This document shows positions 5,012-16,876 of a stretch of DNA of 64,000 nt, piece after piece. Source of the stretch: Bacteroidetes Order II. bacterium (GTDB lineage: Bacteria > Bacteroidota > Rhodothermia > Rhodothermales > UBA2364); contig JAEUSQ010000007.1 of NCBI GenBank assembly GCA_016788705.1, positions 124,001 through 188,000 on the forward strand, given 5' to 3'. The position numbers and the translations under genes were made by a program. The notes beneath the pieces are model-generated. The model was given only the letters and a program-made list of their open reading frames with translations, had not been told where the DNA came from and made no database searches. How positions within the stretch are numbered: the stretch's first letter is position 1; every line of letters starts with the position of its first letter.

Positions 5012-5116
5012 AGTTACCCTTTCGAGGGGGCACTTTTTGTCTTCTTCCCTTGTACCTTATGCAAATCGTAGCGTATTTTAAGGTGTAAATCCCCTTTACC
5101 TTAAAACCATATTTAC

Positions 5117-5821
5117 GTGTCAAAGAAAAAAAACATAAAGCCCGTCCCACTAGATTTGGGGCAAATTGTCGCATTAATCATACCAACCAATCATGTGCCA
5201 GAAAAAGAAGAGGCTGAATATGGATTGTTTGAGTATGTTCGGCATGCGGACTTCTCAACGGCTGTTGTGATCGGGCATCTTACAGATCAAGAAACTGGGA
5301 GGATTTCGCTCTATAATGGAGATACCTTTCCCATTCAAGGTGTACACCTCCCAATTAATACCGAACTATTGGATGAGTTGTGTGACGAAGAAGATGACTT
5401 TTTTGCGGAAGATATTGGCCATACCCAGAATCCAGCAATCATCCGGATGATCGGGGCGTTATTGGGTTTGCGGAATAATGTAGAGGTTTTGCCGATTATT
5501 GCAGGTAGTAAGCGTTTATCCATTGCCGAGGAGTTGGGTCATGCTTTGGGAGAGGTGATGCACAACCGTCATTTGCTTTTGGTGTCGGCCATCGAAGTTG
5601 AGAAAGTAGCGCAAGCAACACTGGGAGCGTTTATCGGTTCCTTAGAGACCATGCAGCTCAACCCATTGATCCGGATGGTACAATCGGACGAAGTAAAATT
5701 AAAGGGCGGTAACGTAAGCTTTATTGGTACGTTATTGGCTGCGTCTCGGCGTGGAGTAAAGCAAGCGAAGGTATTGACCACGGCAAACAATCAGTTTATG
5801 GGTGCTATTTTGTATCGGTAA
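5117..5821 (+). CDS. Divergent Memo-like (AmmeMemoRadiSam B) protein
   Basis: A 234-residue protein whose overall layout follows the MEMO1/AmmeMemoRadiSam B family: an N-terminal LDLGQIVALIIPTNHV strand, ISLYNGDTFPIQGVHLPIN matching the substrate-loop/strand region, GHTQNPAIIRMIGALLG where Memo proteins have the EHS-type helix, NVEVLPIIAG, then LLLVSAIEVEKVAQ and a C-terminal GGNVSFIGTLLAAS. The family's metal-binding His/Asp/Cys residues (the P-H-A-G start, the paired His after the first strand, the SSD-x-x-H segment and the CG near the end) do not appear in the expected places. It is probably a non-enzymatic or altered relative. Translation appears to start at GTG (5117); a stop lies in frame just upstream. 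No AMMECR1 or radical SAM partner is adjacent. Function unknown. Confidence 0.55.
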   Translation: MSKKKNIKPVPLDLGQIVALIIPTNHVPEKEEAEYGLFEYVRHADFSTAVVIGHLTDQETGRISLYNGDTFPIQGVHLPINTELLDELCDEEDDFFAEDIGHTQNPAIIRMIGALLGLRNNVEVLPIIAGSKRLSIAEELGHALGEVMHNRHLLLVSAIEVEKVAQATLGAFIGSLETMQLNPLIRMVQSDEVKLKGGNVSFIGTLLAASRRGVKQAKVLTTANNQFMGAILYR

Positions 5822-5864
5822 GCAGGTAAAAAGATTGCTTGATAAAGCGTAGTCATGGTATAGC

Positions 5865-7349
5865 CTATAAGACAATTTGTTTTCGAAGCCGTGCAACCGG
5901 AATGTTCATGTGTTCTCGGTATTTTGTCACGGTTCTTCGTGCAATATGATAACCCTTCTCGGCCAGTAGTTCAACCAGACGCTGATCTGAGAGGGGTTTT
6001 ACTTTGTTTTCGGCTTCGATGATCTGTTGAATGAGTGACCGAATTTCTTTATTGGACACCTCTTCGCCACTTTCGGTGGCTAAGCCTTCCGAGAAAAAGT
6101 ATTTCAGTTCATAAACACCCCATTCGGTTTGGACATACTTATTGGAAACGACCCGACTTACGGTAGAGATATCCATTTCAATTTGTTGGGCAATGTCTTT
6201 TAGGATCATCGGTTTTAGATGACCCTCGCCAAACTTAAAAAAATCTTCTTGCAACAGTACAATGGCTTGCATCACTTTCAGCATGGTTTGCCGCCGTTGG
6301 TTCAGTGAATTAATAAACCAGCGTGCCGATTCAATTTTTGATTTAAGAAACTTTCGGGTTTCGTTATCCTCGGTTCTTTTTTTGTCTTTATACCCCCCTA
6401 TTTTTTTACGTGATGCCAGCGTTTCCCACATCTGGCGATATCCCCTTGAGATACGTAGCTGTGGCAGATTTTTTCCATTGAGTGAAATGACAATTTCCCC
6501 ATCAGTGTATTCCACCATAAAATCGGGTGTGATGTAATTTTCAGAAGGGCGGAATAGGCCCTCGCCAGGCTTCGGATTCAAACGTTTGATCAGATCGTAG
6601 GCGTCTTTAAGCTCAGATTCATCTATGTCTAAGCGGCGCATAATGATATCGAAGTGTTTCATGGCAAATTGTTGATAACACTTGCGCAACATCTGGATGG
6701 CGGCTTCCAATCCTGGCTCATCGTTCGGCATGACATAAAGTTGAACCAGAAGGCATTCGCGGAGGTCTCTGGCAGCAATCCCGACAGGGTCGAAGCGCTG
6801 TACTTTATATAAAACCGCCTCCACCTCTTCCTCGGTGGGCATCAGTCCGGAATTAAACATCACATCATCGGAAATGGCTTCGAGGGATCGTCGGAGATAC
6901 CCGTCTTCATCTATCGAACCAATGATTTGCTCGGCGATTAAGTATTTCTTTCGGTCAAAATCTTGATGTCCAATTTGTTCTAAGAGATGCTCGGAGAGGC
7001 TGGCAAAGTACTGCGCGGGCATTTCCCCATAATCTTCTTCGGAACTACCTTCCACATTTGCCTTATAGCCATACAACTCATCTGCGGGATTTAAATATTC
7101 ATCCCAGTCAAAGTCGTCGGTCACCGATTCGCCTTCTCCTTCATTTTCTTCGTTTCGTTCTTCATTTTCTTCGTTTCGTGGTTCTTCTTCGTTTAATCCT
7201 TCCTCCAGTAGCGGATTAATTTCAATTTCTTGTTTAATACGTTGTTCTAAAGCCAATGTAGGCAATTGCAGCAGTTTAATATATTGAATCTGCTGTGGGG
7301 AAAGTTTTTGCTGGAGTTTTTGCTGCTGGGTTAGCCGTACTCTCGTCAT
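5865..7349 (-). CDS. rpoN: RNA polymerase sigma-54 factor
   Basis: Sigma-54, which recognises -24/-12 promoters and needs AAA+ activators. The 494-residue protein shows all three parts: a Gln/Leu-rich activator-interacting region at the N-terminus (KLSPQQIQYIKLLQLPTLAL), an unusually acidic linker at about residues 50-90, the core-binding region, and the C-terminal DNA-binding region with the RpoN box ARRTVTKYREHMNIP followed by RLRKQIVL at the very end. It lies 14 bases downstream of the DUF3109 gene on the same strand, so the two are probably co-transcribed. No enhancer-binding activator gene is in the window, and no convincing -24/-12 promoter was seen. Confidence 0.97.
   Translation of the reverse strand: MTRVRLTQQQKLQQKLSPQQIQYIKLLQLPTLALEQRIKQEIEINPLLEEGLNEEEPRNEENEERNEENEGEGESVTDDFDWDEYLNPADELYGYKANVEGSSEEDYGEMPAQYFASLSEHLLEQIGHQDFDRKKYLIAEQIIGSIDEDGYLRRSLEAISDDVMFNSGLMPTEEEVEAVLYKVQRFDPVGIAARDLRECLLVQLYVMPNDEPGLEAAIQMLRKCYQQFAMKHFDIIMRRLDIDESELKDAYDLIKRLNPKPGEGLFRPSENYITPDFMVEYTDGEIVISLNGKNLPQLRISRGYRQMWETLASRKKIGGYKDKKRTEDNETRKFLKSKIESARWFINSLNQRRQTMLKVMQAIVLLQEDFFKFGEGHLKPMILKDIAQQIEMDISTVSRVVSNKYVQTEWGVYELKYFFSEGLATESGEEVSNKEIRSLIQQIIEAENKVKPLSDQRLVELLAEKGYHIARRTVTKYREHMNIPVARLRKQIVL
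7140..7181. repeat. Two-copy 21-bp tandem repeat inside rpoN
   Basis: Two adjacent 21-base units (7140-7160 and 7161-7181, about 18-19 identical bases) encode the repeated acidic stretch NEENEE/RNEENEG in the sigma-54 linker. The unit is a multiple of three, so copy-number changes would keep the frame. Confidence 0.7.
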
Positions 7350-14837: not shown

Positions 14838-15509
14838 ATGATTATTGATTTTATCGGATGCCGCTTCAGGATAACGGGGCAATCGGTGGTAGGTCTGTAT
14901 TTCCTCTTTTGCCCTTTGCTGCTGATGGCGCAGGCCGATGACAGCCAACTTTGGTCTAAGGTGTCTTTTTCTGAGAATATAGGTGCAAAATCAAAAATTG
15001 GGCTTGATTATGAAGTGAGGCTTAAAGAACAAGGATCCGTTTTAGACGCGCACTATATAAGTGCGTTATATGGGTATAAAATGAAAAAATGGATTGAGAC
15101 AGGGGCCGATTTTCGGTACAAAAAGGGTTCGGAAGAGACGAGTATGCGTGTAGCCTTTCAGTTGGCATTGCAAAAACGGGTACGAAGTATTCGGTACAAA
15201 GCGACCGCTAAAACCCTTTATGAATGGTATTTAACACCCGAAGATACGCCTATAGAATGGACCTTTAGGCCCGGTGTGGAATTTAAATGGTACACGGGAG
15301 CCGTGCGGTGGGCAACAGAAGTAGAACCGCTGTGGCTAATAGAAGAGCGTGCTTTATCTCTTAAACGGGTTCGCTGGAAAACCGGTTTCGAGGTTCGGAT
15401 TTTACCGACCATTGCTCTTGAGACCTTTTATACGGCGCAATGGCGCTACAAAAAAAATGACACACCCTACACCCACATTGGCGGGATCGGGCTTAGCATC
15501 GGACGTTAA
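14838..15509 (+). CDS. DUF2490 outer-membrane beta-barrel protein
   Basis: A 223-residue exported protein of the DUF2490 family. A hydrophobic N-terminal signal (VVGLYFLFCPLLLMAQA) precedes alternating strands such as SKIGLDYEVRLKE, HYISALYGYKMKKWIETGAD and TGFEVRILPTIALETFYTAQ, ending in HIGGIGLSIGR, consistent with a small outer-membrane barrel. It is the first gene of a three-gene cluster with a VTC-domain protein (23 bases downstream) and a DUF4956 membrane protein, suggesting a shared envelope function. Family function is unknown. Confidence 0.8.
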   Translation: MIIDFIGCRFRITGQSVVGLYFLFCPLLLMAQADDSQLWSKVSFSENIGAKSKIGLDYEVRLKEQGSVLDAHYISALYGYKMKKWIETGADFRYKKGSEETSMRVAFQLALQKRVRSIRYKATAKTLYEWYLTPEDTPIEWTFRPGVEFKWYTGAVRWATEVEPLWLIEERALSLKRVRWKTGFEVRILPTIALETFYTAQWRYKKNDTPYTHIGGIGLSIGR

Positions 15510-15531
15510 TTCTGGGCTACAGTCTGCGCTA

Positions 15532-16266
15532 ATGGATTTTGTTCCCATAACGCTTCGGGACTTAGAGGCGGTTTCACTTCAAAACCGGGTGGATGCCAAG
15601 TTTCTGATCCCCCTTTCGGTATTACCCGACGTGCTGGGCCGGATCCAACAAGATTACGGCGTTTTAGACATTGAGAAAAGCCGAATTTTTCCGTATGTGT
15701 CCTGCTATTTTGATACGCCCGATTTGCAATTTTACCATCACCACCATAATGGTCGCCCCAATCGGCTTAAAATTCGTTTACGTCAGTATGTACTTTCTGA
15801 TTTGTTTTATTTTGAGGTGAAGCAAAAAAGATTTGGGACGAGGACCGAAAAAATACGCCTCAAACGCGAGGACTTGTCCACGAAACTGAAACGTGCTGAA
15901 GAAGCATTGATCCATGATACCTTCTATCTGAACCATGAAATTTGTCCACAACTTACGACGTGCTTTAACCGGATCACTTTGGCAGGAGGCCAGCATGAAG
16001 AGCGGGTTACGATAGATACCGGATTGCTTTTTTCGCGAAATGGGGGATCCGTTCAATTGTCTGAAGTAGTTATTGTAGAAGTTAAGCAACCCCGAAACAA
16101 CCTCCACACCCCCATTCGGCATGTACTTCGGCAATTGGGTGCTTCCCCGAAACCGTTTTCAAAATATGCGATCGGGATGGCCCTTATGATGCCGACCCTC
16201 CGCCAAAACGCCTTTAAGCCTGTTTTCCTAAACCTGAAACGACTTTATGATGGAAGAGCTTTTTAA
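15532..16266 (+). CDS. VTC-domain (polyphosphate polymerase-like) protein
   Basis: A 244-residue protein with the VTC domain, the tunnel-fold catalytic domain that in yeast Vtc4 makes polyphosphate from ATP. Tunnel-type motifs are visible: NRVDAKFLIP at the N-terminus, the basic strand NRLKIRLRQY, the EVK strand LFYFEVKQKRFGTR, a second EVK in VIVEVKQPR and the C-terminal SKYAIGM. The start at 15532 leaves a 23-base gap to the DUF2490 gene; a longer frame would overlap that gene. It overlaps the DUF4956 start by 20 bases, so the two are translationally linked. Polyphosphate synthesis is inferred from fold; bacterial VTC-domain enzymes of this size are not well characterised. Confidence 0.85.
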   Translation: MDFVPITLRDLEAVSLQNRVDAKFLIPLSVLPDVLGRIQQDYGVLDIEKSRIFPYVSCYFDTPDLQFYHHHHNGRPNRLKIRLRQYVLSDLFYFEVKQKRFGTRTEKIRLKREDLSTKLKRAEEALIHDTFYLNHEICPQLTTCFNRITLAGGQHEERVTIDTGLLFSRNGGSVQLSEVVIVEVKQPRNNLHTPIRHVLRQLGASPKPFSKYAIGMALMMPTLRQNAFKPVFLNLKRLYDGRAF

Positions 16267-16876
16267 AATCCATACACCCGATTTATCCATTTTCCTTGCG
16301 CGAGCTTTGCTCAATGCGGTTTCTATTTTTATTATTGTTCGTTTAATATATTATCCAAGGCATAAAAATAAAGATTTTGTTTTTACCTTTTTTCTTTTTA
16401 ATGCAGCCAATTTTATTATTTGTTTGTTTCTGAGTACTTCAAAATTCGAGATGGGATTTGCTTTTGGCTTATTTGCCATATTCTCCATTATTCGCTACCG
16501 AACAGTGACGGTTCACATCCGCGAAATGGGGTATTTTTTTGTTGCGGTTGCATTGGCCATGATGAATGCGCTGGCGGTTCCAGACATGTTGTTGCTCCTT
16601 GGAAATGGACTGCTTTTAGGGCTTGTTTGGGCCTTAGACCATCAGGATAAACTCATGCACGAAAGTTATCAGGTCATTTTATACGAACGTATTGATCTTA
16701 TTTCGCCAGAAAAACGGACCGAACTGTTGGCGGATTTAAGAGTGCGTACAGGCATAGATTACCATAGGGTGGAGGTGGAACGGGTAGATTTTTTCCGGGA
16801 TACTGTTCGTCTTCGTGCGCATTATTTCACCCAGCGTGTGGAAGGGGCCAGAGGTGCTTTGGGAGAGGATGACTAA
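16247..16876 (+). CDS. DUF4956 inner-membrane protein
   Basis: A 209-residue DUF4956 protein with about four membrane segments in its first 130 residues (for example ALLNAVSIFIIVRLIYY, DFVFTFFLFNAANFIICLFL and MLLLLGNGLLLGLVWAL) and a conserved loop FGLFAIFSIIRYRT. The C-terminal 80 residues form a soluble domain (RVRTGIDYHRVEVERVDFFR). It overlaps the VTC-domain gene by 20 bases; this pairing of VTC and DUF4956 genes recurs in bacteria, so it may anchor or serve the polymerase-like partner at the membrane. Either of two adjacent ATGs (16247, 16250) could start it. Function unproven. Confidence 0.83.
   Translation: MMEELFKIHTPDLSIFLARALLNAVSIFIIVRLIYYPRHKNKDFVFTFFLFNAANFIICLFLSTSKFEMGFAFGLFAIFSIIRYRTVTVHIREMGYFFVAVALAMMNALAVPDMLLLLGNGLLLGLVWALDHQDKLMHESYQVILYERIDLISPEKRTELLADLRVRTGIDYHRVEVERVDFFRDTVRLRAHYFTQRVEGARGALGEDD

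Follow-up and report, generated by a model that had tools for sequence, protein, structure and literature searches.

Locus Organization

The analyzed window is a stretch of 64,000 nucleotides on contig C7 of the source genome (G000; 4.28 Mb, 66 contigs). The module considered here consists of three genes in series on the + strand, recognized from the list of open reading frames and from Pfam matches. The first (14838..15509; 223 aa) encodes a predicted outer-membrane beta-barrel of the DUF2490 family with an N-terminus that appears signal-like by eye (PF10677, E = 5.1e-12; 46.3 bits, cut-off 29.8). It is followed by a VTC-domain gene (probably 15457..16266; 269 aa from the ATG at 15457; PF09359, E = 1.7e-28; 100.2 bits, cut-off 23), which is the sole VTC match in the genome, and by the gene of a DUF4956 inner-membrane protein (16247..16876; 209 aa; PF16316, E = 3.8e-51; 173.6 bits, cut-off 30.6). 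The order of the genes is that given in the preliminary description of this DNA, and the motifs it listed are present in the VTC protein, namely, EVKQKR (residues 95–100), EVKQPR (183–188), and SKYAIGM (210–216); here and below, VTC residues are counted from position 15532. An acyltransferase gene on the opposite strand is located upstream of the module, and a gap of 115 nt downstream of DUF4956 is followed by a DUF480 gene and a PALP-family gene.

It should be noted that the VTC start initially proposed at 15532, which would give a protein of 244 aa, is doubtful, since the codon corresponding to this ATG reads AGG in G236 and ACA in G237 (the genus has these two further members here), while an in-frame ATG at 15457 is common to all three genomes. 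Judging from these codons, the true start is probably 15457 rather than 15532; this ATG falls within the coding sequence of the barrel, which may account for part of its conservation. TTG at 15478 is a possible alternative start. When counted from 15457, the VTC gene overlaps the barrel gene by 53 nt, and the three genes thus probably overlap serially, by 53 nt and then by 20 nt. The 20-nt overlap of VTC and DUF4956 noted previously is present in the window but is not kept as a conserved trait, as G237 has a gap of +12 nt. A promoter and terminator scan of the locus was at the level of shuffled sequences (6 and 3 sites versus 4.0 and 3.1 in shuffles). The G+C content of the module was mildly low (0.444 versus a 2-kb mean of 0.472, with 7% of 2-kb windows lower).

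Co-Occurrence of the VTC and DUF4956 Genes

In the 394 genomes of the phylum, DUF4956 was found in 87 and VTC in 56, and all 56 genomes with VTC also contained DUF4956; this co-occurrence excludes a chance association. The co-conservation of the cluster, on which the preliminary description had staked its proposal beforehand, was thus borne out. Sixty of the 64 VTC places were located on the same strand within 1 kb of DUF4956, three were at 2.7 to 2.9 kb, and one, a fragment, had no DUF4956 nearby. DUF4956 occurred without a VTC match in 31 of its 87 genomes. Among the 244 genomes of the class, VTC was found in 63 and DUF4956 in 94, with both in 62 of the 63 VTC genomes; in the exception, G095, the contig ends 228 nt from VTC. 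Of the 68 VTC places in this sample, 63 were within 1 kb of DUF4956. These counts are not independent events, given that the class sample overlaps that of the phylum and that some loci nearly duplicate one another (e.g., L137 and L138).

The DUF4956 scores were bimodal, with type A at 153 bits or more (21 places in 20 genomes, including the window) and type B at 74 bits or less. Within the class, such high-scoring DUF4956 was present only in the genus of the window (3/244), and acquisition of the window module by transfer from other Bacteroidota was considered, although its G+C content departs only mildly from that of the genome. Of 591 candidate type-A stretches, at least 576 were confirmed, and the named loci are the best 80 of this longer list; according to their record titles, these 80 come mostly from Flavobacteriales, Bacteroidales, Chitinophagales, Emticicia, and Kapaibacterium, with a few from other phyla. 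VTC was beside DUF4956 in 72 of the best 80 named loci, and four of the eight misses have no more than 176 nt of upstream sequence. When loci were compared by type, VTC was present in 91 of 101 type-A loci and in 13 of 20 type-B loci. The spacing of the pair was tight, with overlap in 61 of the 91 type-A pairs and a distance of −60 to +30 nt in 83 of them. Sequence distances of VTC were correlated with those of DUF4956 (Mantel r = 0.66, n = 91) and of the barrel (r = 0.70, n = 60).

Several loci contained DUF4956 in other surroundings. In L123 (5909-8826; G040, a genome without a VTC match), an HlyD-type adaptor and then a 412-aa protein without a Pfam match come after DUF4956, which at such a locus may serve an export chain that lacks VTC. 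In L105 (3512-6542; G384), type-A DUF4956 without VTC lies beside a 341-aa protein without a Pfam match and a metallophosphoesterase with a weak match to the purple-acid-phosphatase N-domain; L106 (G281) is alike, by similarity only.

Fold and Tunnel Residues of the VTC Protein

The AlphaFold (AF2) model of the 244-aa form of VTC had a pLDDT of 90.4, and its top Foldseek match was Vtc4 (E = 2.8e-12). In the VIA comparison, the seven best rows were chains of Vtc3, Vtc2, and Vtc4 (Z 16.9-18.4, 209-219 residues, rmsd 3.2-3.6), the best Vtc4 entries among them having Z from 16.9 to 17.9. Of the remaining tunnel proteins, a putative adenylate cyclase scored highest (Z 15.3), and two more Vtc4 entries had Z of 15.0 and 14.1. 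A profile of 17 bacterial VTC relatives matched Vtc4 (E = 1.9e-17). According to the model, the VTC protein has the tunnel fold of Vtc4, Vtc2, and Vtc3. Vtc2 and Vtc3 are not known to be catalytic, and since they fit as well as Vtc4, the fold alone is not proof of catalysis. Neither an SPX domain nor membrane helices of its own were found in the protein: Pfam matched nothing in it but a single VTC domain, and the 244-aa model comprises the tunnel domain and nothing else.

The conserved tunnel residues, identified from an alignment to Vtc4 and column counts in 104 proteins, span 15586..16164 on the + strand and are R19, K23, R78, K80, R82, R84, E95, K97, K107, R147, R158, E183, K185, and K211. 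Residues R19, D21, K23, H71, R82, R84, and K97 align to Vtc4 R196, T198, K200, R253, R264, R266, and K281, and residues K107, R147, R158, E183, K185, and K211 align to Vtc4 K294, R361, R373, E426, K428, and K458, respectively (Vtc4 positions are those of the full-length protein, read off the printed alignment). The residues that we take to line the Vtc4 tunnel, namely, K200, R253, R264, R266, K281, K294, R361, R373, E426, and K458, are all present in the window protein except R253, which is H71 here. Ten mapped residues (K23, R82, R84, K97, K107, R147, R158 as R or K, E183, K185, and K211) were kept in nearly all 91 type-A proteins and in 13 of 13 type-B proteins. In type A, R82 was R and K97 was K in 89 of 91 (two gaps each), R147 and K211 were kept in 91/91, and E183 and K185 in 90/91; in type B, R82, K97, R147, E183, K185, and K211 were each found in 13/13. 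H71 was H in 89 of the 91 type-A proteins (two gaps), and the type-B proteins had K (10/13) or T (3/13) at this position. R78 and K80 are two further nearly invariant basic residues of the tunnel. A literature search on Vtc4 residue R264 returned nothing.

The hydrolase motif ExExK was used for spacing, and by this spacing, without an alignment to AtTTM3, residues R19, D21, and K185 fall at AtTTM3 E2, E4, and E171, that is, two basic residues and one acid. In the hydrolases, the second-metal glutamates are E2, E4, and E171 of AtTTM3 and E4, E6, and E162 of ygiF (PMC4641920). The acidic patch of AtTTM3 that binds further metals also includes E90, and the map covers the other three of its four glutamates. 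The basic residues that lead the chain away in Vtc4 are glutamates in AtTTM3, and three such glutamates hold the second metal in ygiF (PMC4641920). The map by spacing differs from that source, which places four basic Vtc4 residues at AtTTM3 glutamates, whereas the map puts T198 at E4. Basic residues at the second-metal positions of the sequence lean toward a polymerase without proving one. A decayed TTM as an explanation of VTC was rejected because the tunnel columns are nearly invariant.

A damaged tunnel was observed in one type-A protein, the second copy in G387 (L104, VTC at 5099-5902), with the replacements E183->D, K185->Q, and R84->C. By these substitutions, it is likely a non-catalytic paralogue that accompanies an intact copy elsewhere in G387, much as Vtc2/3 accompany Vtc4.

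The DUF4956 Protein

The AF2 model of DUF4956 contained five predicted long helices followed by a C-terminal beta-alpha-beta-beta domain (pLDDT 77.0, pTM 0.58). An RYRT motif (R83-Y-R85-T86; 16493..16504, + strand) follows the third long helix, and by the positive-inside rule, both the C-terminal domain and the RYRT loop would be cytoplasmic. Within type A, R83 was conserved in 100/101 proteins and R85 and T86 in 101/101; two arginines one residue apart were invariant in 16 type-B proteins. Comparison of the model with solved structures revealed no convincing match, either in Foldseek (best E = 0.14) or in VIA, where the best Z of 6.5, for plant ALMT channels, is in the noise range. MgtC chains were absent from the VIA matches listed, to which no weight is given.

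The type-B DUF4956 sequences matched an MgtC profile of five sequences (E = 3.1e-9), and the type-A and type-B profiles matched each other (E = 9.8e-10), whereas the direct comparison of type A, to which the window protein belongs, with the MgtC profile was not significant (E = 0.14). Two type-B DUF4956 genes (G176 and G161) appeared below the cut-off in the MgtC family search, and PF02308 (MgtC) had no matches in the genome of the window. Thus, by profile comparison, DUF4956 would be distantly MgtC-like, with the link running only via the type-B relatives.

Envelope Partners of the Pair

DUF2490 is a putative porin family (TC 1.B.81), the functions of which are not established (PMC4827864). 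Among the best 80 named type-A loci, a DUF2490 gene was located no more than 3 kb away in 48, after DUF4956 in 44 of these, and was absent nearby in 32. All 20 type-A genomes contained DUF2490 (1 to 7 matches each), and in 15 of them, by coordinates, a copy lay near the module; the genome-wide search covered these 20 genomes only, which gives no background rate. The side on which the barrel lies differs, before VTC in the window, G236, and G237 and after the pair in most relatives, and the link thus persists despite rearrangement.

Other envelope components were counted with profiles (barrel, lipoprotein, adaptor, and CotH) that had been built from the very loci to which they were then applied, with "near" for the last three meaning anywhere in the fetched stretch. 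A lipoprotein of approximately 138 aa was found in 36 of 101 type-A and in none of 20 type-B loci (CarboxypepD_reg match below the cut-off in the two scanned); none was seen in the window. Meanwhile, an EmrA/MacA-like adaptor of 331 to 399 aa was found in 15 of 20 type-B loci and in 1 of 101 type-A loci. The profile of 14 type-B adaptors matched EmrA (E = 5.9e-13), MacA, and AcrA, and of six adaptors scanned against Pfam, three passed HlyD_3, two were below its cut-off, and one had no match. That one enzyme pair is accompanied by two kinds of envelope part unrelated to each other is the strongest hint that transport across the envelope may be involved.

A candidate HlyD-VTC fusion in G226 (a 778-aa frame) was rejected, as this frame holds the VTC domain only and the adaptor is encoded in another frame that overlaps it (4012-5145 in L116). 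In L109 (5915-8701; G385), a DUF4956 gene without an adjoining VTC overlaps a gene of the phosphate-selective porin family Porin_O_P (E = 2.5e-7), which is followed by CotH; G385 has another DUF4956 with VTC.

CotH Kinases and PPK1

In the phylum sample, CotH was found genome-wide in 54 of the 56 VTC genomes, in 23 of the 31 genomes with DUF4956 only, and in 57 of the 307 with neither, although these frequencies are confounded by kinship. A hand tally by genus gave 37 of 38 genera with VTC versus 55 of 132 others. Within the fetched stretches, CotH was present in 22 of 101 type-A and 9 of 20 type-B loci. The genome of the window contains four CotH genes, all on contigs other than that of the module, and all four proteins had a Por_Secre_tail (type IX-like) match over the cut-off and a signal-like start by eye. 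In two type-A genomes where the barrel is not close to VTC (G275:C7:26316-29048 and G292:C22:87674-91834), DUF2490 lies within 3 kb of CotH. Carbohydrate-binding proteins of the Cthe_2159 family were observed near VTC-DUF4956 in Bacteroidota loci L088, L182, L189, and L204, with the Pfam match confirmed for L088 and L204 and the assignment of L182 and L189 made by similarity. PPK1 (TIGR03705) was found in the genome of the window (contig C39) and in 19 of 20 type-A genomes; consequently, the module is an addition to the usual enzyme, not its replacement.

Interpretation of the Module

The genes form a real and widespread module, and polymerase activity and export would be its functions. The reading that we tentatively put forward is an envelope-linked polymerase in which VTC polymerizes the phosphate of ATP, DUF4956 is the membrane partner, and the barrel or adaptor moves the product outward. 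A cytoplasmic VTC would take the terminal phosphate of ATP inside the basic tunnel and extend a chain that, by analogy with Vtc4, is most likely polyphosphate. DUF4956 would be the docking and probably the translocating partner, in the role of the membrane helices of eukaryotic VTC. The DUF2490 barrel, together with the small lipoprotein in many relatives, would carry the product to the outer membrane or cell surface, and in the sister type, an EmrA-like adaptor would replace the barrel in outward transfer. An envelope-linked polymer module had been suggested in the preliminary description; its fold, tunnel, pairing with DUF4956, and link to envelope parts held up in sequence and model comparisons, as did co-inheritance and gene order, whereas the reaction, product, complex, and export are those that we infer.

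Several observations count against the polymerase reading: R253 is not kept, D21 retains one acid of the hydrolase patch, DUF4956 occurs without VTC in 31 of 87 genomes, and S. intermedius kept both aggregation and Pel after deletion of its predicted polyphosphate polymerase gene SIR_1593 (PMC12345266). In addition, the host and 19 of 20 type-A genomes have PPK1, so polyphosphate does not require VTC. D21 and the genomes with DUF4956 but no VTC match, together with the MgtC relationship of type B, also favor a VTC protein that is a tripolyphosphatase or a sensor of NTP or polyphosphate and regulates an MgtC-like DUF4956 transporter without any polymerization. Phosphatase functions are typical of the tunnel fold (PMC8233210), and AtTTM3 failed to polymerize ATP (PMC4641920). 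However, nearly all relatives have a basic residue at two of the three second-metal positions (R19 and K185), R78 and K80 are nearly invariant, and no hydrolase listed comes as close in fold as Vtc4 does; we consider a hydrolase or sensor rather unlikely.

A module that phosphorylates or decorates a surface glycan or protein, with VTC supplying activated phosphate for use by CotH or another secreted protein and polyphosphate not being the end product, appears unlikely. It would fit the abundance of CotH both across VTC genomes (54/56) and in the type-A and type-B stretches, the Cthe_2159-like proteins in 7 of 101 type-A stretches, the link to Gram-positive Pel loci (PMC7112168), and the altered Pel levels after deletion of SIR_1592 or SIR_1594 (PMC12345266), but CotH is absent near the module of the window, its four genes being on other contigs, PelG exceeded the cut-off in none of the 31 VTC genomes tested, and CotH co-occurrence is corrected for kinship only by the genus-level tally. 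That the genes are independent and together by descent, with the barrel being an unrelated DUF2490 porin, is highly improbable: DUF2490 is indeed multi-copy (1 to 7 per type-A genome), and 5 of 20 genomes have none near the module, but the VTC-DUF4956 adjacency (60/64 in the phylum, 63/68 in the class), which already makes independence of these two unlikely, the position of the barrel before the pair in some families and after it in others, and the overlapping genes of the window argue against it. An extension of the polymerase reading, drawn from the four Por_Secre_tail CotH proteins in the genome of the window and from the CotH frequencies in VTC genomes and in those with neither gene (54/56 versus 57/307), would make exported polyphosphate, produced from cytoplasmic ATP, the phosphate donor for secreted CotH kinases that phosphorylate surface proteins; we regard it as improbable.

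The textbook route to bacterial polyphosphate is by PPK enzymes inside the cell. If the polymerase reading is true, a widespread second, Vtc4-like machine of the envelope would stand beside PPK1 as a route to surface or exported polyphosphate, and the co-occurrence with CotH could explain the action of secreted kinases where ATP is scarce. DUF4956, DUF2490, and, via DUF4956, the MgtC family would acquire a concrete testable role.

Comparison with Known Systems

The window module shares with the eukaryotic VTC complex (Vtc1/Vtc2-3/Vtc4; PDB 3g3q, 3g3r, 7ytj, 8i6v) the tunnel fold, nearly all mapped tunnel residues of Vtc4 and, presumably, a cytoplasmic catalytic domain tied to membrane helices. 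Unlike that complex, it has no SPX match, a separate membrane protein (DUF4956), a barrel gene alongside, and H71 in place of R253. PPK1 (TIGR03705), with presumably the same product, belongs to a different enzyme family and is a separate gene. As for MgtC/SapB (PF02308), the likeness extends to type-B DUF4956, whereas the window type has no direct match. In the literature searched, no assay of a bacterial VTC protein and no paper on DUF4956 together with the term "VTC domain" were found.

In B. thetaiotaomicron, BT3498-BT3499 are DUF4956 and DUF2490 genes in a table row with the values −7.6 and 0.175 (PMC10434189). These two families of the window module are side by side there; the passage concerned names no VTC and proposes no function. 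Beyond this row, no further literature on BT3497-3499 was found. In C. perfringens, a locus contains two VTC genes, each followed by a membrane protein of 222-226 aa, and a CotH gene (PMC2879425); by size and position, these membrane proteins would be DUF4956.

In Gram-positive bacteria, cotH, poly-phosphate polymerase, DUF4956, and DUF4832 genes adjoin pel genes (PMC7112168). Deletion of SIR_1592 or SIR_1594 in S. intermedius also changed aggregation, and SIR_1592 is described with an MgtC transmembrane and an ACT domain (PMC12345266). Following PMC7112168, SIR_1592 would be the DUF4956 gene, a name not used for it in the relevant part of PMC12345266. The latter source reports that the SIR_1592-1594 gene order was not detected other than at Pel loci; in Bacteroidota, loci L117 and L116 have their genes in the order adaptor, VTC, DUF4956, CotH. 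DUF4832 was absent among the Pfam matches of the scanned neighbors, and PelG was not found in the genome of the window or, over the cut-off, in any of 31 VTC genomes tested of the 56 in the phylum sample, the sole weak match being in G226 (18.7 bits, below the cut-off, on another contig). The pair as a mere Pel accessory was therefore rejected. The Pel accessory genes and the module have in common a predicted polyphosphate polymerase beside DUF4956 and the CotH link; in contrast, the window type has a barrel, many relatives have the lipoprotein, and CotH is not adjacent in the window. Thus, the polymerase-DUF4956-CotH link is already in print for Gram-positive Pel loci, while the Bacteroidota form, with a barrel and without PelG in the 31 genomes tested, is new relative to the literature searched.
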